Below, in pieces: positions 1-29,205 of a stretch of DNA of 40,751 bases (within the stretch, counting starts at the first letter, position 1; each line of letters begins with the position of its first letter). The translations under genes were made by a program, and so were the position numbers. Origin of the DNA: Priapulus caudatus (Eukaryota; Priapulida; Priapulimorpha; Priapulimorphida; Priapulidae); the NCBI RefSeq assembly GCF_000485595.1, contig NW_014577957.1, forward strand, positions 87,526 through 128,276, in the 5' to 3' direction. A model generated the notes under the pieces. The model was not told the origin of the DNA. It ran no database searches and saw nothing but the letters and a program-made list of their open reading frames with translations.

Positions 1-441
1 CGTGTTTACTTAAGCTGTGAGGCAAAATACGCAAGGGAGAACAGCTTTGATGTAAATATGGTCGAAGAACTGTCCCTCACACAGGCGGGACTCGGCAGTA
101 TTAGAAACAACACTAAGATTGACGAAGAACTGCAACAACTCATCGCGATCATCATGGCAGGCTGGCCAGACAGCAGACATGACATACCGCCCACTGTACG
201 CCCGTACTTTCACTGCCGTGATGAACTGAGCGTGCAAGAAGGGTTTGTCTTTAAAGGAGAGCGCATCGTAATACCTACAATGATGCGTCAGTATACGCTA
301 AAGAAGCTGCACAGCAGCCACATCGGTACAGGATGTCTGCGCCACGCACGAGAAGCGTTTTACTGGCCCCGCATGAACGATGAGGTACGTGACTACATAT
401 CTGCTTGCAGTACATGCAATGCATTCAAGCCAGAACAATAA
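1..441 (+). pseudogene. Ty3/Gypsy pol fragment: RNase H tail and integrase zinc-binding domain (copy 1)
   Basis: The frame is open from base 1 and enters the window already coding, so the left end is cut by the window edge. Counting from the Met at 58, residues 85-88 (H..H) and 117-120 (CSTC) form the HHCC zinc-binding module found at the N-terminus of retroelement integrases, with the usual YWP motif between them. Copy 2 (4285-4735) has the same sequence and shows that this copy has lost one codon next to the second His. The frame stops at 439-441, where the integrase catalytic core should begin; copy 2 retains a short stub of that core. The Gypsy assignment rests on copy 2, where RNase H and reverse transcriptase pieces lie upstream. 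It is a dead fragment. Confidence 0.8.
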
Positions 442-3537: not shown

Positions 3538-4060
3538 AATAATCCTAGAGGATCTTGCGACACGACTGTTAAAGGCAAAGGTGTTCTCTGTGCTCGATGC
3601 GAAATCAGGGTTCTGGCAGGTCAGGCTAGACCAAGAATCGAGCATGCTTACCACTTTCAACACGCCATTTGAAGGCTCACCACGCGTTCAGGTGGTTTAG
3701 GTTAAGAATGCCGTTCGGGATCAGATCCGCGCCGGAAATATGGCAAGCGCGCATGCATGATGCTGTGGAAGGGCTAAAAGGAGTAGAGGTTATAGCAGAT
3801 GATTGTCTAGTGCTGGGATTCGGCGACGACATGGAGTACGCTGTAAAGGACCATAATCGTAACTTAGCAGCATGTCTGCGATGCGCACGTGACCGTGGAA
3901 TTACGCTCAATAATGAAAAATTCAAGTTGCGTCTCACCGAAGTGCCGTTCATAGGACACCTCGTTACTGCTAATGGCTTACTCGCGGATCCAGCAAAAGT
4001 CAAGGCAATAGTCGAAATGCCCACACCAGTAGACCCAACAACATTACGCACAGATAGAGA
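3538..4060 (+). pseudogene. Ty3/Gypsy reverse transcriptase fragment
   Basis: Two frames together cover the middle of a Ty3/Gypsy reverse transcriptase. The first (about 3541-3690) holds the block with the first catalytic Asp (VLDAKSGFWQV) and ends at a TAG after a short out-of-place insertion near 3667. The second (3669-4050) continues with GIRSAPEIWQ, the two-Asp active site read as VIADDCLVLG, and a thumb-like section ending in PVDPTT. YxDD is replaced by IADD, a form known in some Gypsy lineages. The 5' part (gag, protease, start of the polymerase) is absent. After 4050 the frame runs directly into the middle of RNase H, so the RT-RNase H connection has been deleted. Confidence 0.85.
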
Positions 4061-4810
4061 AAGAGTTGCTGGCGATTGTGTATGCCTGCGAAAAGTTGGA
4101 CCAGTACGTTTATGCTAAGAGCATACATGTGTAATCTGACCACAAACCTCTAGAGGTGATCTCTAAGAAGCCTATACAAAGTGTTCCTAAGAGACTTCAA
4201 CGCATGTTGATACGTCTACAGAAGTACGATGTCAACATACAGTACAAGTGTGGCACAGAAATGTACATAGCCGATACGCTATCCCGTGTTTACTTAAGCT
4301 GTGAGGCAAAATACGCAAGGGAGAACAGCTTTGATGTGAATATGGTCGAAGAACTGCCCCTCACACAGGCGAGACTCGACAGTATTAAAAACAACACTAA
4401 GATTGACGAAGAACTGCAACAACTCATCGCGATCATCATGGCAGGCTGGCCAGACAGCAGACATGACATACCGCCCGCTGTACGCCCGTACTTTCACTGC
4501 CGTGATGAACTGAGCGTGCAGGAAAGGGTTTGTCTTTAAAGGGGAGCGCATCATAATACCTACAATGATGCGTCAGTATACGCTAAAGAAGCTGCACAGC
4601 AGCCACATCGGTACAGAAGGATGTCTGCGCTGCGCACGAGAAGCGTTTTACTGGCCCTGCATGAATGATGAGGTACGTGACTACATATCTGCTTGCAGTA
4701 CATGCAATGCATTCAAGCCAGAACAATATTAAACCTCATAACAATAGATTACCTCTCGAACTTCTTCGAGATAGACCAGTTACACACAATCAATAGGCAG
4801 GATTACAAGT
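4050..4810 (+). pseudogene. Ty3/Gypsy RNase H tail, zinc-binding domain and integrase stub (copy 2)
   Basis: The RNase H C-terminal half is recognisable as KELLAIVYACEK, then SDHKPLEVISKK after an in-frame TAA near 4130, and finally an ADTLSR motif at about 4270-4287, the usual end of Gypsy RNase H. The integrase zinc-binding domain follows; relative to copy 1 a one-base insertion near 4522 breaks the frame. After the CSTC motif this copy retains about 20 codons of the integrase core start (an ITIDY-type strand, at about 4738-4780) before homology ends. Part of this segment is the longer partner of the fragment at the left edge of the window. Confidence 0.82.
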
Positions 4811-14394: not shown

Positions 14395-15028
14395 CACAGG
14401 AAGCGACCGTGTGCGACAGGGAGGCATGCAAAGTCCTTATCGGACGAGGTCTGGTAGGACAGTGAAACCGACCGCCCATTTCAATGTATAGTAGGCGATG
14501 ATACGAGTGCATTGAGAACTGTTCGAGCAGATAATTTTGAATAAGTTCTGATCGTTTCAAGTTCATCGTAATGTTCCCTGAATGTTAGAATCTTTTGAAG
14601 TTCAAGATAATTTGGTGTTTTTTTGTAAGGAAGACAACAGTGTGAATTCTAAAATATGTCGATTATTTTCCTTTAAAGAGGGAAGGTGTTGCGTGAAGAC
14701 AAAATACATGTAATATGTTTAATGATTTATGTTGCTCATAGGTGGAGCCACTGTCGCCCTCTCTGTACCTTATGGCATCCTAATAAAGTTGTCTGATACT
14801 TAGCTTTGTGTTCTATCGTCCATACTGAATCTGCTAACAAGAGATACAACACGAAACATCTACTACCACAGGTTCCTCTGCATTGCATGAGCGAAAGGTT
14901 AAAATAATCTTGGCCACTCGTACGAATTTTACTCATATATAATAAGCTATTTAATAAATTATATTACCAGTTAACTAGTGGTAAGTTCAGTAATTAGTTA
15001 CTTTGTGTATGCCAAATAATTTCTGAGT
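14395..15028. other. Non-coding stretch between Tigger and LINE fragments
   Basis: It holds an AATAAA at about 14780-14785, 390 bases after the Tigger frame, and otherwise AT-rich sequence. No coding motifs, terminal repeats or RNA genes were seen. Confidence 0.4.
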
Positions 15029-15109
15029 TTGCGTGATAACGGCACTGACAGTGTGTGCGCTCATGGCACGGGCGTGGCACGGGCGTTCACGAGCGTTATG
15101 CCTTTACAG

Positions 15110-15500
15110 CAGCCCGAAGAGTGCACGAACCATCTTGTTCCAAACCTGGAGAAAAAGCTGGCAGAGGGCGATCTGAAGCAGGAGCAAGAGCTGATGATAA
15201 AGCTCTACCAAAGTATTATCAACGGGGCCATGCCGAAGTCCCGAATTTGTGCTAGTGCACAAATAAAGCATGAGGACATAGAAACAACTGATAGACTCGG
15301 TGTGAACCAGACTAATGGAGACAAACCCAGACCAATAAGGATAAAATTCAAATCCTCAGACCCGAACAAGACCCTATTCAGAAACTTGAGTAAATTAGCT
15401 GCGACAACAAGGGAGGAGACCCAAGGTATACATATTGACATGACCAGACTCAATCACAGAGAGAACAATACAAGAATCTCGCTGCAGAAGCCAAAAAAAA
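15110..15500 (+). pseudogene. LINE ORF1-like fragment (RRM and C-terminal domain type)
   Basis: Within a longer open frame (15029-15877) the first part carries a short helix and then IKHEDIETTDRLGVNQ, KPRPIRIKFKSSDPNK and RNLSKLA. This is the pattern of the RNA-binding ORF1 protein of animal non-LTR retrotransposons (DIxRxxRLG, then RPIxVKF). The part after it (HIDMTRLNHRENN) fits the C-terminal domain of those proteins. The frame then meets BEL integrase sequence at about 15510 without a stop. LINE reverse transcriptase is found just downstream, which supports the assignment. Confidence 0.6.
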
Positions 15501-15510
15501 AGAAGAAGAT

Positions 15511-15756
15511 GAGCAGGAGACTGGTCTCCAAATGTGTTACATGCAAGCGACAGCAAGGTAAACTTTGTGAACAGAAAATGGCCGATTTGGCAGAAGTTCG
15601 TCTAGTCCCAGACGAGCCTGTGTTTACCAGAGTAGAGTGTGATTACTTTGGTCCGTTTGAAGTGAAACAGAAAAGGTCTCTTGGGAAGCGTTATAGGGTT
15701 ATTTTCACTTGCTTGGTGAACCGGGCCGTATATCTAGAGGTTGTCTCTTTAGATGT
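15511..15756 (+). pseudogene. BEL/Pao integrase fragment fused in frame to LINE ORF1
   Basis: The open frame continues with CVTCKRQQGK, the CxxC half of the integrase zinc-binding domain, then RVECDYFGPFEVK, which holds the first catalytic Asp of the core, and LVNRAVYLEVVS. It is a different BEL lineage from the fragment at 10769-13033 (KQKRSLGKRYRV here, ESRKELKKWGVL there). The other two catalytic acids are missing; homology ends near 15756, where LINE reverse transcriptase begins in another frame. Confidence 0.75.
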
Positions 15757-15948
15757 GGCTAAGGGAACGAAGGCAGAGAGTAGTTGTGAATGGTCAACAA
15801 TCGCACTGGAGACCAGTGACAAGTGCTGTGTCTCAAGAGTCTGTGCTTGGCCCTGTCCTTTTCTTAGTGTACATTGACGACATTGACGATACAGTGGCCA
15901 GTAGTCTCTCAAAGTTTGCGGACGACACTAAGCTATTCGGAAGTGTCA
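15753..15948 (+). pseudogene. LINE reverse transcriptase fragment (jockey/CR1-like)
   Basis: About 65 codons carry the best-known part of a non-LTR reverse transcriptase: WLRERRQRVVVNG, SVLGPVLFLVYIDD and SKFADDTKLFGS. FADD is the catalytic two-Asp motif. The usual GVPQGSVLGP block is altered to AVSQESVLGP. The fragment is cut on the right at 15949, exactly where LTR element E1 begins, so E1 inserted into it or recombined there. Confidence 0.82.
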
Positions 15949-15949
15949 G

Positions 15950-16884
15950 TGTAACAGAGCGCGCGAGATTTAAATCCCCGCGCTATTTAAATAGTCTAGT
16001 AGTTTTAAAATAGATGGATAGCACTGCGCACGATCAGCGAGATGCAGCAGCATGACTGGCTCCTACAGCGCATGTCCGTGACGCTGGAGAGCGGAGCAGC
16101 ACTGTCGCTCACGTGTCTCTGACTAGCCGCGACGTCAGGGCGCCACAGCGCATGCGCGGGAGACCACCGGTCAGTCATGACGACGCAGCGGGGAAGGCGA
16201 CCAATAAACCTTTGGAAGTCTCCTCCCAAGCTGGGCGAGTTCCCAAGAAACATGTCGGCCAACACCTCACGTTAGCGCCTCACCCTAACTTTAGCGTACG
16301 GCCTTCTCCTGTCTCAATAAATTCCCATTGCCCGTGTACTTAGAAGTAGAGCGCCAAAACGATTAGGCGCTCTCCTTGTCACTAGAAATAAATGACCACC
16401 AGTCAAGTATAGTTACGCCTAGTTACGCCTGTTTAAAGCGACTCATACAAAAACCCTCCCTTAGAAAAAACAGGATCTTATCTTATCTTCTCCTCTTTTC
16501 TACTTCCGACGTGTCGTGCGGTTTATACATATACTCGCCGTTGTAGCCACATAGTTATCCACACCAAGTAGGATCTTTACGTGTTTCCGTCTAACTACTT
16601 GTACGATTAGGACCTGATTGGTGCGCAAGTGAATAAAGATCATCAGTAGTGTTTCATTCTTCTAACTCATGTTTAATTTACTCGTCTTGCGCTGCATCGG
16701 ACACATCGACACCTCGGCTGACGATCACCTTCAAACAGGCAACGTTCACACCAGCACGATAGCGACCAGGTTAAGACACACGCAAGGACAATAACATAAT
16801 TAAGTCATCGCCTATACGATCGCGAAGATACTCACAGTTGGCATCTCCCGCTGTGTCCCACGAACAGTCTAGAACACCAGTACA
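15950..16884 (+). repeat. E1 5' LTR (LTR1)
   Basis: It is a 935-base TG...CA unit beginning TGTAACAGAGCGCGCG and ending ACACCAGTACA. It is nearly identical to LTR3 (23634-24575) and an indel-rich match to LTR2 (21063-21990). It contains an AATAAA at 16316-16321 and, just after it, an 8-base-pair stem-loop at 16348-16373 (AGAGCGCC / GGCGCTCT), so the RNA 3' end probably lies here. The promoter is not certain; a TATTTAAATA box near 15985 is a candidate. Confidence 0.85.
16348..16373 (+). promoter_or_regulatory. Conserved stem-loop in the LTR
   Basis: A perfect 8-base-pair stem (AGAGCGCC with GGCGCTCT) encloses a 10-base loop (AAAACGATTA), 27 bases after the AATAAA. It is present unchanged in LTR2 (21446-21471) and LTR3 (24032-24057), although LTR2 has many indels elsewhere. 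Confidence 0.6.
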
Positions 16885-16889
16885 TTAAT

Positions 16890-16909
16890 TGGTGCCGTGA
16901 CCAGGATCG
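16890..16909 (+). promoter_or_regulatory. E1 primer-binding site, probably tRNA-His
   Basis: Five bases after the LTR end, the sequence TGGTGCCGTGAC matches the complement of the last 12 bases of animal tRNA-His (as I recall it, ending GTCACGGCA plus CCA). The following eight bases diverge. The same site follows LTR3 at 24581. Confidence 0.65.
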
Positions 16910-17560
16910 TGCGGAAGGGAAAGTCAGCGGCGAGAGAGGAGGCAGAAAGTGAAAGCAAGTATTAATAAGAAACAGATGCCGCTAGAAGAACCGGCCAGCA
17001 ACCAGCAGCAGCAGCGTAACGGCGAACGTACGTGAGTAACATACGTGCTTAAACATTGGAGTATCGATGTCAGCACTAAACTATCTAGGAACTGCATTGA
17101 CATTCGAGCGCTAGCATCACTAGCAAGCTAGCATTAGTAGCGGTGACGTCAGCATCGTATCATCGCCAGCATTCAGAACTATTAAACTTTGAGCGCTAGA
17201 AGCATCATCAGCGTCAGCGTAGCGTCAACGTCGACAGAAGCAGCATCATCATCGTAAAGAGATCGCCTGCAGCAGCATCAACATTAACAGCCACGACGGT
17301 AGCCTTGCCATCGTCAACGTCGACTGCAGCAGCAGTAACAGTAACAGCCGCGACGTCAGCTTAGCCATCGTCAACGTCGACTGCAATACCGTCAACAGCA
17401 GCAGCGGCCCATCGCCATAAGAACTGAGACTATAGCAATGCGTATCACACGAACACGCTGAAGCTATTCCTAGCGAAGAAGTAACCTCGCGGCAGCGGCA
17501 GCACACCAGCGCTGGTACAGCGTAGCATGGACGCGTGTCATGTAAGTACAACACTCATTA
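16910..17560 (+). other. E1 leader with short upstream exon and CAG/GTC-rich tract
   Basis: ATG at 16976 opens a short frame (MPLEEP... with a Gln run) ending at a good splice donor: AC then GTGAGT at 17032. The rest is rich in CAGCAG and GTCAACGTCGAC motifs, which give long but meaningless leucine-rich or serine-rich frames on either strand. A further donor-like site (CATGTAAGT) lies near 17538. This part is almost identical to 24601-25240 in E2. Confidence 0.5.
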
Positions 17561-17733
17561 ATGTCAGCTTAACATAATGTAATCGATGAATAGTAATTTT
17601 AAAATCGAGTAAGCGTCATGCAACCTATTGCCTAATCCTGCCCCGCTATGAAGCCCCACCACTACTGCCTTCCATCACCCTGAACCTCCAATGACACAGT
17701 GAAGTTGAAGCGAAACTAAACAGGAAAGATCCG

Positions 17734-18006
17734 ATGCCGGAGTTTAAACGGAAGTTGGAAGAGGAAAAGGAAACGGAGGAGGACTCTTCGAATTCACGTG
17801 GCTCGCACAAGGACTCCGACCAGAGCGCATCATCGCGCAACCCAGTCCAGCGGAGAGCTCATGTTTTTGATGAGTGGGAAGGTAGCCAATGAGGTAGATT
17901 GGGTCCCAGGCCCGCAAGCAAATATTAAATGCCCCAGGTTGTAATCAGATTCTACGAAGAGGAATAACGGCGCAGCGAGAATGATGAAGAACAAATTGAG
18001 GCATAA
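17734..18006 (+). pseudogene. HP1-type chromo shadow domain in E1 (frameshifted copy)
   Basis: It is the counterpart of the open frame 25429-25704 in E2. Relative to E2 it has at least five single-base insertions or deletions (in the GGCTCGC, CATCGCGC, GATGAGTGGG, GTAGCCAATG and GCCCCAGG stretches), so no continuous chromo shadow domain can be read. The indels start abruptly at about 17535, while the preceding 1.6 kb matches E2 almost perfectly. That pattern could reflect decay, recombination or poor consensus quality. Confidence 0.75.
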
Positions 18007-18691
18007 CTGCGATCATAACTGCAACAGCAAGCAAGCGGCATGATCAAGGCGCAGCGTCAAGCCGCCATTGCAATCACGCTACATATCTACCATATGCCGC
18101 AGCCGACACCGCGGGCGATGCAGATTCAACCAGCGACGCGGAGGCAGCCTACACGCTCTGGCTACCAAGTAGCACACTGTGGCAGCAGCGAGGCAGGCCA
18201 CGGAGATGCCAGCCATTCAAACAAGTTTGAAAAGATAGATATTCTCTTAATAGGCTATCTAGATAGTTAGACTTTTCTGTGTAAAGTTATATATAATGTG
18301 TGAAGGAGACGGGACGTACAACATGCAAGTGTACTGTCAACAACATGCACAACAGGCACGTACGTCAGTGACGCGCAGGCAACCACATGCAAGGACGAAG
18401 ACGTCGCTAGCCCACAAAAGGGATCACACACCAAAGGCTACAAAGCAACCGCAGCCGCCAATGTCTCGGGCAGTTGATTCCTTCGGCCAAGGATTCATCT
18501 GCAAGTGACCCTTGAGGCTCAGGACCCGATGACGCAATCATCTACACCCCGCGGAGCAGAGAGTACAGCCACAACGCCTTGACATGGAAGAAGGTTTGAT
18601 GTAGGGTACGGACGGTGCAGAAGATCACAACCGTCCAGGAAAAGAAAAGTAGACGGGAATAAATCAGATTCCCAAGTAGAGGCAGTACTAA
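18007..18691 (+). other. E1 region downstream of the chromo shadow domain
   Basis: It matches 25705-26390 in E2 with frequent indels. No continuous frame exists here; in E2 the same region carries small Pro/Ser/acidic frames. It ends at the CTAA that was duplicated by the solo-LTR insertion. Confidence 0.6.
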
Positions 18692-19365
18692 TGTAACAAT
18701 GCCCAGTTAATATTTAACAGAGCTGAGTCGATATGTAGAGTAGGTAATTACAGAATTACAGAAAACTAAAATGGTAAAGTATAATGAGGCAACACCCCGG
18801 ATAACGCTTCGGATGTTTGTTGGGAAGAACACGGGGTGGAAGCTCTTAGAATACAGGAAGTGCGCATGTGAAATCTACACGTGAGTAGAACGTGATTTGG
18901 TAAAGTCCATTTCAATATTACACGGTTAACCCGACACCTTGGTGACAGCCTAAGCACGTGCAGACTGAATGGTCTTGCACATGCAGGAAATAAGATGACG
19001 TCACCTAGCTGGTGATATATATATGACCACACCTTGGGAGCTCTTCAGTAGTTTCCTAATGCGCGCACAGTTACGATTCATGTATTAGACTACGTTTCCG
19101 GACTCTTGCTCACGCGCGGCGTGAGCAACCATAAATTACTGTGGGTGGAAAACTCATTCATGGACTTACGAATTAATTGTGTTTGATCATTGATACTACC
19201 TGAAATCTCCTTCAAGCTTCACCGCAAACACGAAACAAGCAGAACAGTTAACAACACAACGCAAGAAGAATAAACAATATCTAACCTACGATCACGTGGC
19301 CTACATACAGTCGGCATCTCTCGACGTATCACACTGGAACTGAGACAAGTAATAGGCTAATTACA
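18692..19365 (+). mobile_element. Solo LTR of a second family, with 4-base target duplication
   Basis: A 674-base unit begins TGTAACAATGCCC and ends GGCTAATTACA. It is flanked on both sides by CTAA (18688-18691 and 19366-19369). E2 preserves the empty site: it reads GTACTAACTGCACAGG at the same place (about 26380). Its last 70 bases resemble the end of LTR1/3 (CAGTCGGCATCTC, then CGACGT), so it is a related LTR family. No internal sequence or second LTR is attached. Confidence 0.88.
18996..19025 (+). promoter_or_regulatory. CRE and TATA box in the solo LTR
   Basis: A perfect palindromic TGACGTCA (18996-19003) lies 12 bases before a TATATATATA tract (19016-19025). This is the usual core-promoter layout of a retroelement LTR, with the transcription start expected about 30 bases further on. 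Confidence 0.5.
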
Positions 19366-19752
19366 CTAACTGCACAGGGAAAGATATAATTGTTATAACA
19401 ACGGCAGTGTAGCGAGTAGAGCTAACTGCACAGGGAAGATAAATGTTATAACAACGGCAGTGTAGCGAGTAGAGCTAACTGCACAGGGAAGATAAATGTT
19501 ATAACAACGGCAGTGTAGCGAGTAGAGCTAACTGCACAGGGAGATAAAATGTTATAACAAACGGCAGTGTAGGCGAGCAGTGCTAACTGCACAGGGAAAT
19601 AAATGTTATAACCACGGCAGTGTAGCGAGCAGTGCTAACTGCACAGGGAAGATAAATGTTATAACAACGGCAGTTGTAGCGAGTAGAGCTAACTGCACAG
19701 GGAAGATAAATGTTATAACAACGGCAGTGTAGCGAGTAGAGCTAACTGCACA
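19366..19752 (+). repeat. 53-base tandem repeat in E1, seven units plus a partial one
   Basis: The unit starts CTAACTGCACAGGGAAGATA and continues with TGTTATAACAACGGCAGTGT and AGCGAGTAGAG. Seven full units and one truncated unit are present. E2 shows the start of the first unit at 26380-26428 and then the assembly gap, so the gap probably contains the same array. Confidence 0.92.
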
Positions 19753-21049
19753 TGAAGACAACGACGAGGGAGATGGGACAACGACGAACGTTGAGAGATT
19801 TACTGTATCTCCTTCCATTGTGCCCCTACCCTACCACTCCGCCCCTTTCGTGAAGGCTTGAATTAGCACTACGCGTAAATTTAGCACTGAGCACGGATGT
19901 GAGTGTTGTAGCGCGCATGTTCAACGGGGAACGCGAGAAGTGAATACGATGATCATTGGGTTATGATTATGATTTTATCACTGTTGTACATGCATGCGAT
20001 TCGGTACTAGACTACCACGATGATCATGTGTTATGATTATCACTGTTGTAGCCGCATGCAATTTGAGTGTTGTACGCTGCGCGATTTACGTTCAACGCGA
20101 GTATGGCCATACGACGATTCATGACTTATGATTATTATTGCGTTATTCAGAGGTTTTCTTTTGGAACGGCGGATCAGGAAGATATCGATCGCCTGAATTC
20201 AAGAATTTCTCAATTCGAGTTGTCTCAAGAGGCTTCCGAGCTATGCATTGGAGGTATAGCCTCACAGTATTTAATCTCACGCGCACGCAGTACAGCTGAA
20301 TAGGCAAAACCCTTAACAAGCTCATTAATGGTACAAATATCTGCGAAAAATTTGAATAGAGTCAAATAACGGCGTGACCGGCTTGCGACTTCAACCAGCA
20401 AAGCAGTCTACGAGTTTCACACAACTTCTAGTCCACAGTGGACGCGATAGAAATGGCATTGGGTGACGTTACAAACGTCAAAATAACAACTATGGAACAT
20501 GCACTCAGCGATCTGTTGCAGGAACCTTGCCCATATCCTTGATACCTCCGGCACAGCTAGGAGTTTAGGCACAGCTAAGAGATTAGCAGGAAAATATAGA
20601 ATTAAAGACATTTATGGAAAGTTCAACGAATTAGATGGGGTTTATGAGCACAGCCTGCGTTGTACCGTTGATTTTTGTGTGTGTTTTGTTTACTATGAGA
20701 CGCGTATACCCTGTTATTATTTTAGGAAAATGTGATTGCACTCGCGTGTTTAATGAGGAATGCGTATAAGGTGACTACGATGATCACCCGTTACGAGTAG
20801 CAGAGATATGATTCTGGATTTGTTTCTGAGTTGATTTTGTTTTGTTTTGATTTGTTTGATTTGGTGCAGAGTTGTTTCTGGTTTTAAATTGGATTTCCAG
20901 TGCTATTGTATATTTACACGCGCGTTAGTTAGGTCAGGGTACCACGTACTTATATTACTTTAACGAGAGGTCTACGTTAGAGATTGCGAGTATAGTGGAT
21001 GAGTTTTTGGACGCCAGTTGTTGCCATTTGAGGGCAAGCAACTTTTTAT
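19753..21049 (+). other. E1 internal region between tandem repeat and polypurine tract
   Basis: No pol or env motif is visible. Imperfect repeats of a segment with ACGATGATCA and GGTTATGATTAT occur near 19950-20050, 20018-20060 and 20777-20800. A modest frame at about 20149-20301 (QEDIDRLNSRISQFELSQ, a possible coiled coil) and another at 20499-20735 are the longest in it; neither has a recognisable domain. The final 250 bases are T/G-rich. Confidence 0.45.
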
Positions 21050-21062
21050 GCGGGGGGGTGTG
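21050..21062 (+). promoter_or_regulatory. E1 polypurine tract
   Basis: GCGGGGGGGTGTG lies immediately before LTR2 and would prime plus-strand DNA synthesis. Its presence shows that LTR2 is a 3' LTR in the same orientation as LTR1. Confidence 0.7.
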
Positions 21063-21990
21063 TGTAATAGAGCGCGCGAGATTTAAATCCCCGCGCTATT
21101 TAAAATAATCTAGTAGTTTTAAAATAGATGGATAGCATCTGCGCACGATCAGCGAGATGCAGCAGCATGACTGGCTCCTACAGCGCATGTCCGTGACGGC
21201 TGAGAGCGGAGCAGCACTGTCGTCACGTGTCTCTGACTACCGCGCGACGTCAGGGCGCACAGCGCGTATTGCGCGGAGACCACCGTCAGTCATGACGACG
21301 CAGCGGTGGAAGGCGACAAATAACCTCAGCTGGGCGAGTTTCCCAAGAAACATATCGGCCCACCTCACGTTAGCGCCTCACCCTAACTTTAGCGTATGGC
21401 CTTCTCCTGTCTCATAAAATTCCATTGCCCGTGTACTCCGAAGTTAGAGCGCCAAAACGATTAGGCGCTCTCCTGTCACTAAGAATAAATGACCACAGTC
21501 AAGTATATTACGCCTAGTTACGCCTGTTTAAGCAACTCATATAAAAACGCTCCCTTAGGAAAAACGGTGGTTCTTGTCTTAGATCATCTATTCTTATCTT
21601 ATCTTCTCCTTTCTATTTCGACGTGTCGTGCGGCTTTATACAATATACTAGCCGTTGTAGCCATATAGTTATCCACACCGAGTAGATCTTTAACGTGTTT
21701 TCTTCTAGCTATTTGTACGACTATCACCTGATTTGTGCGCATCGTGAACTAAATGACCATAAGTAGTGCTTCATATTCTTCTATCTCGTGATTTATTTAC
21801 TTCGTCTTGCGCTGCATCGGACACATCGACACCTCGCTGACGATTCCTTCAAACAGGCAACTATTCACGAGCCAGCACGATAGAGAACAGGGTAATACAC
21901 AACGCAAAGGACAATAACACAATCAAGTCAATGGCGCCTATACGATCGCGAAGCTACACGGGACACGTACAGAAGTAGAACACCTGTACA
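21063..21990 (+). repeat. E1 3' LTR (LTR2)
   Basis: It is a 928-base unit starting TGTAATAGAGCGCGCG and ending ACACCTGTACA. It matches LTR1 and LTR3 throughout but with many single-base indels and substitutions. The hairpin at 21446-21471 is intact. Tigger coding sequence begins at the next base, 21991. Confidence 0.85.
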
Positions 21991-23229
21991 TTTGGACCTG
22001 CAGCGACGCCCATAGATATCATGAAAGGGTTTGAAGTTAGTGGCATATACCCATACAATGCCGACGTCTTTGGTGATGACGAGTACGCTCCATCATCAGT
22101 CACTGACCGCCCGAAAGTGCCTAATCAGGATCAGGATAGCACATCCATGGACGAAAACTGTTCCAGGAGGATGAGCCCCCAGCCACCACCATCTCTTGGT
22201 GAAGACCAATTCGAGACCTATCTACAACACAGAGGACTACAAATTGAAACAGTTCGTTGTGATGTCATTGTATGCAATGGTCGCCAGCCTAAAGTCGGAA
22301 GGGATCACAGATATTACTCACCAGGAGTTGTGTGACAAAGTTACAGAAGAGGCAAGAAAGAATGAAGCATTCTACCAGGCGTTTAGTACATCCTGTGACC
22401 AAGATGTTGTGACGAGTGTAGGGAATTATGTCTTCTCCAAAGCCTACGACAACAATTTTGGAGATCTGGTGATAGCTGCTCTATGCAATACTATGTCGGT
22501 TACTGCAACAGTATATCTGCTTAGAGACGGAGCTGTCTCGGAACTCAATCATGAACCAGGGCAACCAGGGATTACATCTAGAGGTATCGTTCATCTTGTA
22601 TTACGGGGAACCGGAGTTGCTGCACACTACAGCGCTGCGGTGAAAAGACAAACATAGACACAACCCATTCAGGCCGAGAAGGAAGATGCTACAAACATGA
22701 CGAAAAACGTTGTACACAGTTTCACATCCCCTCAGCAGCACAGGACATCACAAGAGCCTGGCCGTACATCGTTTTCACCCGAGGAAGTGCGACCTCTACC
22801 AAAAGCTCCACCTAGAAAAATCTCTACCCGAGGAAGAAACGTAAAACTGCAATATTGACCGACACACCGGAAAAGAATGCTCTTGAAGAAGAAGCCAAGG
22901 CGAGAGAGGAAAAGAAACGTAAAGCAGCAGAATCAAAATCCACCAATAAAGCAGATAAAACGAAACCGAAAAAAAGGCAAACGAAAACGAAAGTGGCAAC
23001 CAAGAAATCAGCAATAAACACTGCTACAAAGTCTCAGAAACGACTCAGATATGAAGCGTCGGATAAGGAGGAAACTTTCTGACTCGTCTCTGACGAACCA
23101 TATTCCAACAGCAGGCCTGGGGAAAACTGGGTTCAGTGTGTTGGTTGTTTAAACTGGTCACATGAAGAATGTATTGCTGCAAAGGAACCTTACCTGTGTC
23201 ACAACTGTGATACCGATGAGTATGCATAG
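21991..23229 (+). pseudogene. pogo/Tigger transposase C-terminal region (copy 2) with PHD-like zinc finger
   Basis: The frame is open from 21991 with AATPIDIMKGFEVSGIYPYN and SSVTDRPK, the end of the DDE_1 catalytic domain of a pogo-like transposase; the rest of the catalytic domain is cut off by LTR2. After a frame change near 22200 an OTU-like segment follows (own entry). From about 22770 the Tigger tail resumes: FSPEEVRPLPKAPPRK, then TDTPEKNALEEE and a Lys-rich stretch (frameshift at about 22835). A TGA at about 23082 interrupts the frame just before a zinc-finger module, GENWVQCVGCLNWSHEEC and LCHNC, the PHD-like finger found at the C-terminus of some invertebrate Tigger proteins. Copy 1 at 13312 has a different C-terminal domain, so this is another family. 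Confidence 0.78.
22196..22657 (+). CDS. OTU-like segment inside the Tigger frame
   Basis: About 150 codons are open in a frame one base away from the Tigger frame on its left. They include an alpha-helical part (ELCDKVTEEARKNEAFYQAF), a VGNYVFSKAYDNNFGDLVIAALC segment (quoted in two parts: VGNYVFSKAYDNN, FGDLVIAALCNTMSV), a beta strand TATVYLL and an end reading GTGVAAHYSAAV. Helix, GDLV.AAL, beta strand and a final HY is the order of the C-terminal half of OTU-fold cysteine proteases, whose catalytic His lies in such an HY motif. The N-terminal block with catalytic Asp and Cys is absent. The assignment is a fold-level guess; it may instead be an uncharacterised domain of the transposon. Confidence 0.35.
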   Translation: MVKTNSRPIYNTEDYKLKQFVVMSLYAMVASLKSEGITDITHQELCDKVTEEARKNEAFYQAFSTSCDQDVVTSVGNYVFSKAYDNNFGDLVIAALCNTMSVTATVYLLRDGAVSELNHEPGQPGITSRGIVHLVLRGTGVAAHYSAAVKRQT

Positions 23230-23569
23230 GTCATAGGCTTAATCTGATGATCAAGCCTGAGGTGGGCCCTTCATTTGGTTTTAGGTAGGCAAGCTTAGCC
23301 TGCTATTGTTGAATCAGGATTGACGTTTGAACAATAAGAGCTAGGCTGGGAAAGACAGTGCAGTTTTGTTTTAGAGCAAAGGAGGACAGTAGCCATGTAT
23401 TTTTGTAATCCTGGATCCACCCCTGGTGTAACAGTACGTCAGTTTGTTTGACGCTGGGAACTTATGAACCCCGGGGTATATATTTGGGAGGAAAAAACCA
23501 GGTAGTTAATAAAAGCAAATGACCGCAGTAACCCTACAGTTTCAAACACCACTGTTTATATTATTTCAG
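23230..23569. other. Non-coding stretch after Tigger copy 2
   Basis: It contains an AATAAAAGC near 23508, a possible poly(A) signal, and no coding motif. It ends in a good splice acceptor (TTATTTCAG at 23561-23569). Confidence 0.4.
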
Positions 23570-23633
23570 ACGAAATATGGGACACCCAGAGCAGAGGAAA
23601 CGTGACCTCAAACGCGCAGCGGAAAGTAATCAG
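23570..23633 (+). other. Exon-like start interrupted by LTR3
   Basis: After the acceptor at 23569, an ATG at 23577 opens 19 codons (MGHPEQRKRDLKRAAESNQ) that run exactly to the first base of LTR3. It is Arg/Lys-rich and could be the N-terminus of a transposase or other nuclear protein. It might belong to the hAT-type frame that resumes after the gap at 26874; nothing in the sequence proves this. Confidence 0.35.
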
Positions 23634-24575
23634 TGTAACAGAGCGCGCGAGATTTAAATCCCCGCGCTATTTAAATAGTCTAGTAGTTTTAAAATAGATG
23701 GATAGCACTGCGCACGATCAGCGAGATGCAGCAGCATGACTGGCTCGTACAGCGCATGTCCGGGACGCTGGAGAGCGGAGCAGCACTGTCGCTCACGTGT
23801 CTCTGACTAGCCGTGACGTCAGGGCACCACAGCGCATGCGCGGGAGACCACCGGTCAGTCATGACGACGCAGCGGGGAAGGCGACCAATAAACCTTTGGA
23901 AGTCTCCTCCCAAGCTGGGCGAGTTCCCAAGAAACATGTCGGCCAACCCCTCACGTTAGCGCCTCACCCTAACTTTAGCGTACGGCCTTCTCCTGTCTCA
24001 ATAAATTCCCATTGCCCGTGTACTTAGAAGTAGAGCGCCAAAACGATTAGGCGCTCTCCTTGTCACTAGAAATAAATGACCACCAGTCAAGTATAGTTAC
24101 GCCTAGTTACGCCTGTTTAAAGCGACTCATACAAAAACCCTCCCTTAGAAAAAACAGGATCTTATCTTATCTTCTCCTCTTTTCTACTTCCGACGTGTCG
24201 TGCGGTTTATACATATACTCGCCGTTGTAGCCACATAGTTATCCACACCAAGTAGGATCTTTACGTGTTTCCGTCTAACTACTTGTACGATTAGGACCTG
24301 ATTGGTGCGCAAGTGAATAAAGATCATCAGTAGTGTTTCATTCTTCTATCTCGTGTTTAATTTACTCGTCTTGCGCCGCATCGGACACATCGACACCTCG
24401 GCTGACGATCACCTTCAAACAGGCAACGTTCACGCCAGCACGATAGCGAACAGGTTAAGACACACGCAAGGGCAATAACATAATTAAGTCATCGCCTATA
24501 CGATCGCGAAGCTACACACAGTCGGCATCTCCCGACGTGTCCCACGAACAGTCTAGACTCTAGAACACCTGTACA
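23634..24575 (+). repeat. E2 5' LTR (LTR3)
   Basis: It is a 942-base TG...CA unit, starting TGTAACAGAGCGCGCG and ending ACACCTGTACA. It differs from LTR1 by a handful of substitutions and a few short indels. The AATAAA and hairpin (24032-24057) are conserved. Confidence 0.85.
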
Positions 24576-24580
24576 TTATT

Positions 24581-24600
24581 TGGTGCCGTGACCAGGATCG
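24581..24600 (+). promoter_or_regulatory. E2 primer-binding site, probably tRNA-His
   Basis: TGGTGCCGTGAC begins six bases after the end of LTR3 and is identical to the site in E1. Confidence 0.65.
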
Positions 24601-24666
24601 TGCGGAAGGGAAAGTCAGCGGCGAGAGAGGAGGCAGAAAGTAAAAGCAAGTATTAATAAGAAACAG

Positions 24667-24722
24667 ATGCCGCTAGAAGAACCGTCCAGCAACCAGCAGC
24701 AGCAGCGTAACGGCGAACGTAC
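24667..24722 (+). CDS. Possible first exon of the E2 chromo-shadow protein
   Basis: ATG at 24667 opens 18 codons (MPLEEPSSNQQQQRNGER) plus two bases, ending at a strong donor (AC then GTGAGT at 24723). The phase matches two acceptors upstream of the chromo shadow domain, ACACAG ending at 25394 and AACAG ending at 25418: either join keeps the HP1 frame. The intron would be about 0.7 kb and would remove the stop-filled CAG/GTC-rich tract. This is inferred from splice signals and phase alone. Confidence 0.45.
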
Positions 24723-25394
24723 GTGAGTAACATACGTGCTTAAACATTGGAGTATCGACGTCAGCACTAAACTATCTAGGAACTGCATTGACATTCGAGC
24801 GCTAGCATCACTAGCAAGCTAGCATTAGTAGCGGTGACGTCAGCATCGTATCATCGCCAGCATTCAGAGCTATCAGACTTTGAGCGCTAGAAGCATCATC
24901 AGCGTCAGCGTAGCGTCAACGTCGACAGAAGCAGCATCATCATCGTAAAGAGATCGCCTGCAGCAGCATCAACATTAACAGCCACGATGGTAACCTTGCC
25001 ATCGTCAACGTCGACTGCAGCAGCAGTAACAGTAACAGCCGCGACGTCAGCTTAGCCATCGTCAACGTCGACTGCAATACCGTCAACAGCAGCAGCGGCC
25101 CATCGCCATAAGAACTGAGACTATAGCAATGCGTATCACACGAACACGCTGAAGCTATTCCTAGCGAAGAAGTGACCTCGCGGCAGCGGCAGCGCAGCCA
25201 GCGCTGGTACAGCGTAGCATGGACGCCGTGTCATGTAAGTACAACACTCATTAATGCTCAGCTTAACATAATGTAATCGATGAATAGTAATTTTTAAAAT
25301 CGAGTAAGCCGTCATGCAACCTATTGCCTAATCCTGCCCCGCTATGAAGCCCACCACTACTGCCTTCCATCACCCTGAACCTCCAATGACACAG

Positions 25395-25704
25395 TGAAGT
25401 TGAAGCGAAACTAAACAGCGAAGATCCGATGCCGGAGTTTAAACGGAAGTTGGAAGAGGAAAAGGAAACGGAGGAGGACTCTTCGAATTCACGTGGCTTC
25501 GCACAAGGACTCCGACCAGAGCGCATCATCGGCGCAACCCAGTCCAGCGGAGAGCTCATGTTTTTGATGAAGTGGGAAGGTAGCAATGAGGTAGATTGGG
25601 TCCCAGCCCGGCAAGCAAATATTAAATGCCCCCAAGTTGTAATCAGATTCTACGAAGAGAGAATAACCTGGCGCACGAATGATGAAGAACAAATTGAGGC
25701 ATAA
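25395..25704 (+). CDS. HP1-type chromo shadow domain protein carried by LTR element E2
   Basis: The frame is open from just after a TGA at about 25388 to TAA at 25702-25704; an internal ATG at 25429 would give 91 residues. A charged hinge ([15 protein letters not shown]) is followed by the chromo shadow domain: [20 protein letters not shown], then [26 protein letters not shown] and ITW. This is the pattern of animal HP1 (CBX1/3/5) chromo shadow domains, which dimerise and bind PxVxL partners. The Ile and Trp equivalent to HP1-beta I161 (dimer contact) and W170 (partner binding) are present. No N-terminal methyl-lysine-binding chromodomain is seen. Chromoviruses carry chromodomains at the integrase C-terminus; here the domain lies just downstream of the primer-binding site, and no pol is visible. 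The best reading is a captured host gene piece. Confidence 0.8.
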
Positions 25705-26379
25705 CTGCGATCATAACTGCAACAGCAAGCAAGCGGCATGATCAAGGCGCAGCGATCAAGCCGCCATTGCAATCACGCTACTATCTACCATATGCGCAGC
25801 CGACACCGCGGCGGATGCAGATTCAACCAGCGACGCGGAGGCAGCCTACACGCTCTGCCTACCAAATAGCACACCGCGGCAGCAGCGAGGCAGCCACAGA
25901 GATGCAGCCATTCAAACAGTTTGAAAAGATAGATATTCTCTTAATAGGCCTATCTAGTAGTTAGACATTTCCTGTGTAACAGGTATATATAATGTGTGAA
26001 GGAGACGGGACGTACAACATGCAAGTGTACTGTCAACAACATGCAAACAGGCACGTACGTCAGTGACCGCAGGCAACCCATGCAAGGACGAAGACGTCGC
26101 TAGCCACAAAGGGGATCACACACCAAAGGCTACGAAGCAACCGCAGCCGCCAATGTCTCGGGCAGTTGATCCTTCGGCCAAGGATTCATCTGCAAGTGAC
26201 CTTGAGGCTCAGGAGCCCGATGACGCAATCACCTACACCCCGGCGGAGGCAGAGAGTACAGCCACAAGCCTTGACATGGAAGAAAATTTGATGTAGGGTA
26301 CGGACGGTGCACAAGATTCACAACCGTCCAGGAAAAGAAAAGTAGACGGGAATAAATCAGATTCCCAACTAGAGGCAGT
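25705..26379 (+). other. E2 region downstream of the chromo shadow frame, small frames only
   Basis: Two short frames can be read: about 25767-25964 (Gln/Arg/Pro-rich, MQIQPATRRQPTR) and 26063-26296 (Ser/Pro/acidic, SAKDSSASDLEAQEPDD). The second meets a TAG at 26294-26296 but continues in frame with SRKRKVDG, a nuclear-localisation-like basic patch, and on into the first tandem repeat. Neither has a recognisable gag domain or zinc knuckle. Confidence 0.4.
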
Positions 26380-26428
26380 ACTAACTGCACAGGGAAAGAT
26401 AAATGTTATAACAACGGCAGTGTAGCGA

Positions 26429-26872
26429 NNNNNNNNNNNNNNNNNNNNNNNNNNNNNNNNNNNNNNNNNNNNNNNNNNNNNNNNNNNNNNNNNNNNNNNN
26501 NNNNNNNNNNNNNNNNNNNNNNNNNNNNNNNNNNNNNNNNNNNNNNNNNNNNNNNNNNNNNNNNNNNNNNNNNNNNNNNNNNNNNNNNNNNNNNNNNNNN
26601 NNNNNNNNNNNNNNNNNNNNNNNNNNNNNNNNNNNNNNNNNNNNNNNNNNNNNNNNNNNNNNNNNNNNNNNNNNNNNNNNNNNNNNNNNNNNNNNNNNNN
26701 NNNNNNNNNNNNNNNNNNNNNNNNNNNNNNNNNNNNNNNNNNNNNNNNNNNNNNNNNNNNNNNNNNNNNNNNNNNNNNNNNNNNNNNNNNNNNNNNNNNN
26801 NNNNNNNNNNNNNNNNNNNNNNNNNNNNNNNNNNNNNNNNNNNNNNNNNNNNNNNNNNNNNNNNNNNNNNNN
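26429..26872. other. Assembly gap, 444 N
   Basis: The run of N begins inside the first unit of the E2 tandem repeat and ends in the hAT-type frame. Its true length is unknown; by comparison with E1 the missing sequence should include the array, about 1.3 kb of internal sequence and a 3' LTR, which is longer than the run shown. Confidence 0.95.
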
Positions 26873-26873
26873 G

Positions 26874-29205
26874 CCACCTGCTTCCACCGCTCATTATACC
26901 CATCCGGCGAACGACGTCGAGGAAAGTGGCGAATTGATAACGGACGTTGGTAGTATGTACCCCGCGTCGGAAAACTATGATAACATACCTCATGAAAATG
27001 TACAAACTTTTCTCAAAAACATTCGCAATCTAACCCGCAAACAAAAATACCACCTGCTAAAGCACCATGCGCGCATGCCACATGACTACGTGTTTCCGTC
27101 GCGGTATATCGCCGTATGCAACAGAAGATTTAATAACCAGTGGATCGATGACTTTTCTTGGATTGTCTATTCTAAAGCAACCGACGGCGCATTCTGTCTC
27201 CCATGTGCCCTGTTTGTGGAGGAGAAGAGGGAACACCTTGGTCTGCTAGTGAATAAGCCGTTCCGAAAATGGAGTAAAAAGAAGGACACAATCAACCCGC
27301 ATGCGGAATGCCTGTACCATACTCGTGCCATGCAAGTTGCGGACGGTCTGATCCACAGCATCGAAACCCTCCAATCAACAATTCCAGCACTCAGCGACGC
27401 TCGTGTCAAAGAAAACATTGGCAGAAACAGACATTGTGAAATGTGTCACCGAAGCTGTGCTGTAATGCAGCAGACAATGCATCGCGTTACGCAGGAACAA
27501 GGAATACCTCAAGAGCGGCGGAAATCCCAGCAATTTCTTTGCCCTCATGAAACTGATGAAAACCACAATCCAATATTGAGAGCACACTTGGATTCACCAA
27601 TCCTCAAGAATGCAACATATGTGTCCACGAAAATTCAAAATGAGGTGATAAATATAATGGACAAGGACATGATCCTCGTGCAGATAGTCAGTGAGGTAAA
27701 TTCGGCAGTTTACTATAGTGTGTTAGCTGACGAGACCACCTCGCATAACAAAGAACAACTGTCGCTCTGTATCCGGTTTGTGGACAAATGTAAGGATATA
27801 AAAGAGGAATTTGTGAGGTTCTCTGGACTACACAGAACCACTGGCTATCACATTGCCCAAGAAATGAAATCTGTTCTCGCGGAGATAGGACTCGACATCA
27901 GCAACATGCGAGGTCAGGGCTATGACGGAGCGGCTGCAATGTCGAGTGAACGTATCGGCGTACAAAAGTTAATCCGTGATGACGCCCCCAAGGCAGTGTA
28001 CATGCACTGCAATGGTCACTGCCTGAACTTGGTAATTGGACATGCCTGTTCCAATACGGACGTGCGCAATATGATAGACAAACTCAAGGCCGTGTGCCTG
28101 TATTTTAAGTACAGTCCTAAGAGACAAGGTTTGTTGGAGCACATCATAACAAAAAATGCTCCTGGCAGTAAGCGGAAGCCGCTACTAAACTTATGTAAGA
28201 CCCGCTGGGCAGAGCGTCAAGAAGCATATACGCACGTCAATGACTCGTACCCGCATCTAGTGACGGCATTTGAAAAGATCGCGCACAGATTACATTCCGA
28301 TATTCTGGACGACGATATTCTGCTATTCAGAGCAGCATGGGATGCTAAGTCAAAACAAGACGCCGTGTCCATCCTGGCATCCATAACCTCGTTCGGGTTC
28401 ATAATGACGTTCAACGTTGTCTACTATTCCCTCGCGCATCTGGAAGTCATCACAGTGAAGTTGCAGAAATCGGCGTTGGACATCTTCAAAGCCCATGAAT
28501 TTGAAATGGTCCAAGAGTTTACAGATTATTTTCGGATGCGGAGAAACACTGTGGACGATGCTATGAAAGACATGTTCACGACGTCCATGCAAATGGCAGG
28601 AAAGGTGGATGTGGTACCCTCCATGCCACGCATCAATGCGTGGCAAATAAACAGAGGCAATACACCAGCTGAGAGCGTGGATGAATACTACAAGCAAAAC
28701 CTGTTGATTCCGTTCACAGACCATATTGTCACGAAACTTGAGGCTCAGTTTTCCGGGCTGCAGACAACCGCCAGTAAATTGCTGGGTCTCGTTCCTACTC
28801 TACTGGTGGAAAACATCGACATCTCGGAGGTTGTGGACATGTACGAAGACGATTTGCCGACGCCTCATCTTGTGGCCACTGAACTGGATCGCTGGAAGCA
28901 TAAGTTTACTAATGTGGCAGACAAACCGATCTCCCTTGCACAGGCTCTGAAAAATCTGTGATGAAACGATGTTTCCCGACATCTTCGTTCTACTGAAGAT
29001 AGGATGAACGTTGCCTGTGACTTCATGAGAGTGTGAGCGAAGTTTCAGCACGATACGCCGCTTACACACATACTTACGTGCATCAATGGGGCAGGAACGC
29101 CTCTCGAATTTGGCGCTAATGACTGTCCATTACAATGATCCGATAGATCTCGAGGTGGTTAACATCTTCGCACAAAAGAACACCAGAAAATTGAAATTGG
29201 ATTCG
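26874..29205 (+). pseudogene. hAT-superfamily transposase with DUF4371 domain (ZMYM1-like), near-intact
   Basis: The frame is open from the gap edge (26874) to TGA 28959-28961; the first Met is 26934 but the frame extends upstream, so the true start is missing. Counting from 26934: TTF-type zinc-finger region (WIDDFSWIVYSKATDGAFCL, then PCALF) at residues 70-100; DUF4371/RNase-H-like core with LADETTSHNKEQLSLC (about 263), RGQGYDGAAAM (about 325) and HCNGHCLNLV (about 358); CKTRWAERQEA at about 420. Between about 27425 and 27585 the protein does not fit the family, whereas another frame of the same DNA does (TEAVL, stop, CSRQCIALRR, then NPSNFFALMKL): two compensating frameshifts. After 28961 another frame gives the hATC dimerisation domain (CERSFSTIRRLHTYLRASMG, then ERLSNLALMTVHYNDP) with two stops before it. 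Likely dead. Confidence 0.82.

Follow-up and report, generated by a model that had tools for sequence, protein, structure and literature searches.

Two LTR elements with an HP1 chromo shadow domain

The stretch of Priapulus caudatus DNA analysed here (contig NW_014577957.1, positions 87,526 to 128,276; 40,751 nucleotides, hereafter the window) holds, between its positions 15950 and 26428 and on its forward strand, two copies (E1 and E2) of a family of long terminal repeat (LTR) elements that carry a chromo shadow domain (CSD) of HP1. The CSD is best preserved in E2, where an open frame of 91 residues (25429..25704, forward strand), delimited from Pfam matches, a structure model, and the exons of the host HP1 gene, comprises the tail of the HP1 chromodomain, a shortened hinge, the CSD, and the native HP1 stop codon. 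The translation of 25390-25701 matches Pfam Chromo_shadow (PF01393) with an E-value of 1.5e-24 and 86.2 bits (cut-off 22.4), and the matched stretch, residues 43-94 of that translation, places the domain proper at 25516..25671 on the forward strand. The closest sequences to this frame in the Protein Data Bank are CBX5 (7.9e-33, the best) and CBX1; an AlphaFold model of the frame, built with ten sequences, has a pLDDT of about 91 over the CSD core (mean 71.9), and its top five Foldseek matches are the CSDs of the HP1 proteins CBX3 and CBX1, superposed at 0.7-0.9 Å over 56-58 columns. The corresponding frame of E1 (17734..18006, forward strand), recognised from a Pfam fragment and by alignment to E2, is broken by one-base insertions or deletions (indels) and stop codons, and its fragment 17720-17941 matches PF01393 at 9.3e-5. 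The closeness to animal HP1 proposed in an initial annotation of this DNA is thereby borne out, and chance similarity is ruled out by the E-values, the fold, and the recurrence of the domain in 13 copies.

The element frames retain only the last residues of the N-terminal chromodomain of HP1, and the match of the E2 frame to Pfam Chromo (0.044) lies under the cut-off. By eye, an isoleucine and a tryptophan fall at the places of HP1alpha I165 and W174, which are described as residues of dimerisation and ligand binding (PMC6123478); both are kept in E2 and in the copies on contigs C23 and C178, and the tryptophan is altered near truncation points in the copies C1 and C242:113356. Since the two residues are present in E2, C23, and C178, the element product could pair with HP1 and with HP1 ligands; a CSD product, if one is made, is expected to fold, to form dimers, and to bind PxVxL ligands, and would do so without a chromodomain and a lysine-rich hinge. 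Ahead of the CSD of E2 lies an intron-like stretch (25237-25395) that begins with GTAAGT and has a match in eight of the 11 copies that lie beyond the window; it is not visibly similar to host HP1 and could serve a spliced transcript.

The LTRs, the primer-binding site, and the E1 polypurine tract of the initial annotation are likewise real, with LTR ends placed by our own reading of the window sequence. On the forward strand, the 5' LTR of E1 (TGTAAC...GTACA) occupies 15950..16884 and is followed at 16890..16907 by a primer-binding site, TGGTGCCGTGACCAGGAT, that is exactly complementary, over 18 nt, to the 3' terminus of tRNA-His; a G-rich polypurine tract at about 21050..21062, similarly placed in C23, abuts the 3' LTR (21063..21990), which was delimited by LTR comparison within the window. 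The 5' LTR of E2, placed by the same comparison, spans 23634..24575 and its primer-binding site, identical to that of E1, 24581..24598, both on the forward strand; 444 N beginning at 26429 end the visible E2, and its 3' LTR is not visible. TG...CA LTR pairs are present in E1 and C23, and E2 shows a 5' LTR only before the N gap. Between the 5' LTRs of E1 and E2, 922 of 940 bases are identical (98%; Kimura two-parameter distance 0.019), compared with 788 of 883 aligned bases (89%; 0.116) between the two LTRs of E1, or 85% in BLAST with gaps counted; for both distances the LTR ends were extended by a few bases beyond the coordinates given here. The family LTR has 17 LTR matches in the genome. The tRNA-His sequence used for the primer-site match was found by ARAGORN on contig C1716, where it adjoins an LTR of the E1/E2 family. 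This complete tRNA-His (L022 6709-6783) has an encoded CCA end, is reverse-complemented relative to the element, and follows the family LTR at the position expected of a primer site; it looks like a primer tRNA fully copied during reverse transcription.

A tblastn search of 15950-26428 with the gag protein, the frame lying between gag and reverse transcriptase (RT), RT, integrase, and pieces of the envelope protein of a related element (contig C1610, described below) found an envelope remnant (20151-20518) and nothing else, although a very different pol could escape such a search. The view that E1 and E2 have no RT, RNase H, or integrase is sustained within that limit, as is the view that their arrangement differs from that of chromoviruses, given that no integrase was found and that the Chromo match lies under its cut-off. 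Weak RT and integrase matches occur elsewhere in the window (124-429 and 4036-4717), outside E1 and E2.

A dispersed family of CSD copies

Two genome searches, one with the CSD of E2 and one with that of C178 as query, led to the same 17 places, comprising 13 element copies of the CSD, spread over 10 contigs, together with a single HP1 gene (contig C554); the searches reached only HP1 genes near enough to either query, and a more distant HP1 could exist. The copies, named after their contigs and, where needed, positions, are E1, E2, C192, C23, C178, C622, C1, C242:34668, C242:106052, C242:113356, C1696, C1968, and C470. Element sequence (leader, intron-like, or post-CSD) adjoins the CSD in 12 of the 13, and the thirteenth, C242:106052, has an LTR-like match only beside its CSD. 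In the six better-kept copies (C192, C23, C178, C622, C1696, and C1968) the leader or intron-like stretch is followed by the CSD and a remnant of the pol end and then, where these are not lost or N, by a 53-bp tandem repeat and a further stretch, in constant order; C470 has one piece on the opposite strand. The copies are members of one family that share their junctions, and the case in which the CSD would be a lone HP1 pseudogene inserted in a single ancestral copy, raised in the initial annotation as grounds for doubt, is excluded by 13 copies on 10 contigs, even if the origin of the domain is still a processed piece of HP1.

A primer site of the tRNA-His type stands some 590-665 bases ahead of the CSD in four of the 11 copies outside the window, exact over 18 bases in C622, with one change in C1696, and poorer in C23 and C1968; none was recognised in the other seven. 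The complete order of LTR, primer-binding site, CSD, polypurine tract, and LTR is found in C23, which has an open CSD frame, a purine-rich tract, and LTR pieces that match at 87-96%, both LTRs being apparently interrupted by other sequence. As the LTR of E1 matched nothing in the fetched pieces of C178, C23, and C192, the CSD cargo sits under diverged LTRs. Nor did the gag, RT, and integrase proteins of the C1610 element match the fetched CSD-flanking stretches of these three copies by tblastn; an RT match at 27% identity occurs in L038 (C242), outside the pieces described.

A short family member on C838 (L018 5739-9981) has LTRs, leader, pol end, tandem repeat, and tail, and is without the CSD segment. 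The gap that it leaves at 17163 was considered as the boundary of the capture and rejected, in that the leader aligns with C1716 somewhat past that point; on the same grounds, C838 probably lost its CSD segment through deletion.

The CSD frame contains a stop or frameshift in seven of the 13 copies, that of E1 possibly owing to poor sequence. Three copies (E2, C23, and C178) are open to the native stop and three more (C1, C1696, and C242:113356) are open in the part retained; in C242:113356 one TGA is flagged in a wider match and none in a narrower one (residues 29-96). The equivalent of the ATG at 25429 is missing in C178, and in C622, C1696, and C1 a single base is deleted immediately before it.

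Probable capture from spliced HP1 mRNA

The last three coding exons of the C554 gene lie at L039 804 onward, 1501-1605, and 1900-2031, with one intron just ahead of the CSD and one within it; by eye, the protein of these exons agrees throughout with P0241, a chromobox record of Priapulus caudatus, apart from part of the first exon. A mollusc host, to which the first protein search had pointed, was discarded in view of this match. Both intron places are spanned without an intron in 10 of the 13 element copies. In the copies shown, again by eye, the alignment to HP1 begins at the chromodomain tail (EPEANLDCEDL), lacks 24-25 residues of the lysine-rich hinge, and extends about 35 bases into the 3' untranslated region past the native stop codon. 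Among the HP1 proteins fetched, that of Priapulus scored best against all three open frames (297 vs. 286 for E2, 263 vs. 261 for C23, and 292 vs. 290 for C178), its lead for the CSDs of C23 and C178 amounting to two points only.

Because the introns are absent and the match runs past the HP1 stop, the CSD appears to have been captured from spliced HP1 mRNA, and since the hinge loss and the flanks are shared among copies, these comparisons point to a capture that, most simply, happened once and was followed by amplification with the element. Entry as genomic HP1 DNA, with no RNA step, would accommodate the GTAAGT stretch that recurs ahead of the CSD in E2 and in eight of the 11 copies outside the window; nevertheless, wherever a copy covers the two intron places (10 copies), both host introns between hinge and CSD end are missing, and the upstream stretch has, by eye, no visible similarity to the surroundings of the host exons, so that this route is very improbable.

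An envelope-bearing relative

An element on contig C1610, with LTRs 9.5 kb apart that are 85-86% identical to those of E1, has frames that match Pfam RVT_1, RT_RNaseH, Integrase_H2C2, rve, and Baculo_F, the last being a baculovirus F-type envelope protein (4.7e-8, 32.5 bits, cut-off 24.1); for gag and protease, nothing in its frames exceeded the Pfam cut-off. A protein search with its RT returned 253 matches, the best-scoring at 51% identity, with uninformative names. It shares with E1 similar LTRs, a piece of the pol end, an envelope piece, and the polypurine region, the tail being 73% identical; a coding partner was sought with LTRs other than that of C23, which is different.

The shared pieces are placed as follows, all on the forward strand of the window. 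Pol-end remnants at 18444..18524 in E1 and 26136..26220 in E2 are 75% and 78% identical in nucleotides to L021 (C1610) 4046-3968 and 4046-3962, respectively, and correspond to the frame after integrase in C1610, their probable identity as an integrase tail following from position. A remnant of a Baculo_F-like envelope gene at 20145..20566 in E1 is 84% identical in nucleotides to L021 3164-2747, inside the C1610 envelope frame. As E1 keeps envelope DNA and both E1 and E2 keep the post-integrase piece, they look like gag-pol-deleted, non-autonomous relatives of an envelope-bearing Ty3/gypsy element; E1 and E2 do not themselves have the Errantivirus layout of gag, pol, and env frames. They differ from C1610 in having neither gag-pol nor an open envelope frame, and in the primer site.

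Elsewhere in the genome, at least 110 matches to a baculovirus-F-like envelope protein were recorded, many in long open frames, and envelope-bearing elements seem to be numerous in Priapulus caudatus. In two contigs such matches precede CSD copies by a few kilobases and share their strand (C23:434106-435194 and C242:110557-111637).

Further features of the window

The inventory of the initial annotation, sound as to LTRs, primer sites, and CSD, had missed the envelope and pol-end remnants and a solo LTR nested in E1. This solo LTR (18692..19365, forward strand) is flanked by a 4-bp CTAA duplication and was delimited by comparing the filled site with the empty one in E2 (26350-26428); it is the sole clean target-site duplication found, that of C23 being unclean by eye. 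Its sequence matches LTR-like stretches near several other CSD copies (L028, L030, L041, and others). The 53-bp tandem repeat common to family members, identified by sequence comparison, follows in E1 at 19371..19760 on the forward strand.

In the LTR and the leader, E1 and E2 align with few gaps (five one-base gaps in 751 aligned bases of leader), in contrast to 16 gaps, 15 of them of one base, in the 666 aligned bases after the CSD. The interior of E1 looks like lower-quality sequence, and its frame breaks are for that reason untrustworthy either way. That E1 and E2 might be the same locus represented twice, or the result of a local duplication, and not two insertions, is suggested by the 98% identity of their 5' parts, by the disagreement of the E1 LTRs, and by the TCAG that directly precedes both 5' LTRs; beyond those four bases, however, the sequence differs, and the nested LTR of E1 is faced by an empty site in E2, which makes a single locus rather unlikely.

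Just upstream of E1, an open frame at 15020-15874, which we take to resemble a BEL/Pao-like integrase, gave no match in Pfam. Past the N gap, a long open frame (26873-28961) presumably resembles a transposase-derived protein of the hAT/ZMYM type. Pfam searches on four other frames of the window were uninformative.

Tests of selection on the captured domain

Pairwise Nei-Gojobori dN/dS ranges from 0.17 to 0.96 among nine element copies and from 0.07 to 0.19 between copies and host. A codon model was fitted to nine of the 13 copies and the host (E1, C242:34668, C242:106052, and C470 being left out, and stop and gapped codons being treated as missing), on a tree with three nodes of only 45-50 support, and gave omega values of 0.67 for tips, 0.76 for internal element branches, and 0.065 for the host branch. 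A model with both element classes fixed at an omega of 1 was not rejected (2dlnL 4.24, p=0.12), nor was one with either the tips (p=0.083) or the internal branches (p=0.475) fixed alone. The purifying selection on the CSD for which the initial annotation proposed a test across copies is accordingly not upheld, and strong purifying selection as a settled fact was dropped as unsupported by the codon model.

Counts of disabling changes lean the other way. Four stop codons were observed against about 8.2 expected (p=0.09), and none on internal branches against 2.35 (p=0.095). Across eight of the 13 copies, two of them cut short (E1, C242:34668, C242:113356, C242:106052, and C470 were left out as damaged or truncated), the 276 bp from the ATG at 25429 to the stop contain four indels, one of them frameshifting, compared with 21 indels of frameshift size in 452 bp of flanks (11 of 16 indels upstream and 10 of 19 downstream); this contrast is biased toward the frame by repeat-rich flanks, by the exclusion of damaged copies, and by the finding of copies through protein similarity. 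The few stops and few frameshifts are suggestive of past constraint. In bases the frame is not better kept, since its identity to E2 (81-87%) is no higher than that of the flanks (84-90% downstream, 72-93% upstream).

Two readings of the present domain bear on these figures. In the first, the CSD was caught by chance and has decayed neutrally since capture; we lean toward this, as omega is indistinguishable from 1 and the frame is interrupted in seven of the 13 copies (with the reservation noted for E1), even though frameshifts and stops in the frame fall below expectation, in both cases suggestively. In the second, which we regard as unlikely, the small CSD protein pairs with the HP1 of the host or engages the ligands of HP1, thereby weakening HP1-based silencing of the LTR family or directing where particles integrate, and is kept for that effect. 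The scarcity of frameshifts and stops, the key residues retained in E2, C23, and C178, and the low omega of the host branch would fit such a function, but the omega values of element tips and internal branches do not depart significantly from neutrality, base identity within the frame does not exceed that downstream, the indel contrast is favoured by its repeat-rich flanks, by the omission of five of the 13 copies, and by the manner of discovery, and C178 has no ATG. Overall, the CSD is at present most likely a passenger under weak or relaxed constraint, an HP1-competing function being possible; the contact with HP1-bound heterochromatin or the interference with host HP1 put forward in the initial annotation is conjectural.

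Proposed origin of the chimeric family

We place a probability of about 85% on the explanation that this is a dispersed, non-autonomous LTR family that carries a piece of HP1 captured from spliced mRNA and is related to envelope-bearing Ty3/gypsy elements. By analogy with LTR-mediated retroposition (PMC5408686), an HP1 mRNA would have entered a particle in which RT switched templates. The stretch so captured would have comprised the end of the chromodomain, part of the hinge, the whole CSD, the stop codon, and the start of the 3' untranslated region, and would have come to stand where gag-pol had been. The chimeric element would next have integrated and spread to 13 or more places, probably with the aid in trans of proteins from elements like that on C1610. 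The initial annotation had proposed a search for further copies with both LTRs and for an autonomous partner with the same LTR and primer site; 13 CSD copies on 10 contigs and, in C1610, an element with similar LTRs, RT, and integrase came to light.

Several observations weigh against this explanation. Paired LTRs occur in only one (C23) of the four copies with fetched flanks; of the other three, C178 has one 56-bp repeat, C192 has no pair, and the downstream piece of C1968 is all N. C1610 has interrupted frames and a primer site unlike that of E2, so that it is to be regarded as a relative and not as a proven helper. The 3' half of E2 is an N gap. The LTRs of E1 disagree and no target-site duplication was seen on comparing its flanks, which differ; on these grounds E1 may have arisen by recombination or through a join in the assembly. 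Lastly, the omega of the branch to the host is very low, for which reason the source may have been an HP1 diverged from C554, or the early element may have been constrained.

A further proposal, which we consider unlikely, is that the captured CSD, freed of both chromodomain and lysine-rich hinge, binds the HP1 of the host and the ligands of HP1 and so reduces silencing across the entire LTR family. The helper would share in this relief, and it and the passenger would gain alike. Because the literature search, as far as its sources extend, found no published case of a dominant-negative CSD, this mechanism draws on general knowledge of HP1 biology.

Known systems and significance

Gene capture by LTR elements is already known in plants and animals. 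In LTR-mediated retroposition, as described for chimeric retrocopies by Tan and co-workers, a processed host mRNA is joined to an LTR element by template switching, and the products resemble E1 and E2 in having no introns and in LTRs that supply a promoter and the means of further movement (PMC5408686); E1 and E2 differ in that the chimera has become dispersed as a family, with LTRs that have diverged, and in that the cargo is an HP1 CSD. Plant LTR elements that carry pieces of host genes include Bs1 of maize (PMC5408686), and among the LTR-captured genes of rice and sorghum some are reported as neutral and others as under purifying selection (PMC3726574); by comparison, E1 and E2 have an animal host, envelope-bearing relatives, and a chromatin protein as cargo. 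In bdelloid rotifers, LTR elements have acquired additional open reading frames, but in the elements described there gag and pol are kept and the extra frames are enzymes or envelope, not a chromatin domain (PMC5408684). The chromoviruses, and Skipper-2 of slime moulds, are, like the present family, Ty3/gypsy elements with a chromo-type domain, and the group II chromodomain of Skipper-2 is said to resemble the HP1 CSD, yet it follows the integrase core (PMC5006619), whereas the domain of E1 and E2 is a true HP1 CSD in a separate captured frame, with no integrase found. An HP1 CSD as the separate cargo of an LTR family went unreported among the matches listed by a literature search that covers few subscription journals, and within that compass it appears to be a new variety of capture.

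The acute transforming retroviruses offer a further parallel, in that a piece of a host gene replaces viral genes and a helper is needed. In contrast to these, E1 and E2 belong to an endogenous family with no known transforming role, and HP1 is not known to be among the host genes that such viruses have taken up.

The machinery by which transposons are silenced counts HP1 among its core components. A mobile family equipped with the dimerisation and ligand-binding domain of HP1, and not its histone-reading domain, would provide a ready-made test of whether a silencer can be turned against its owner. The family also offers a clear animal case, from a little-studied phylum, of a host mRNA that was captured by an LTR element, most simply once, and amplified with it as a family.

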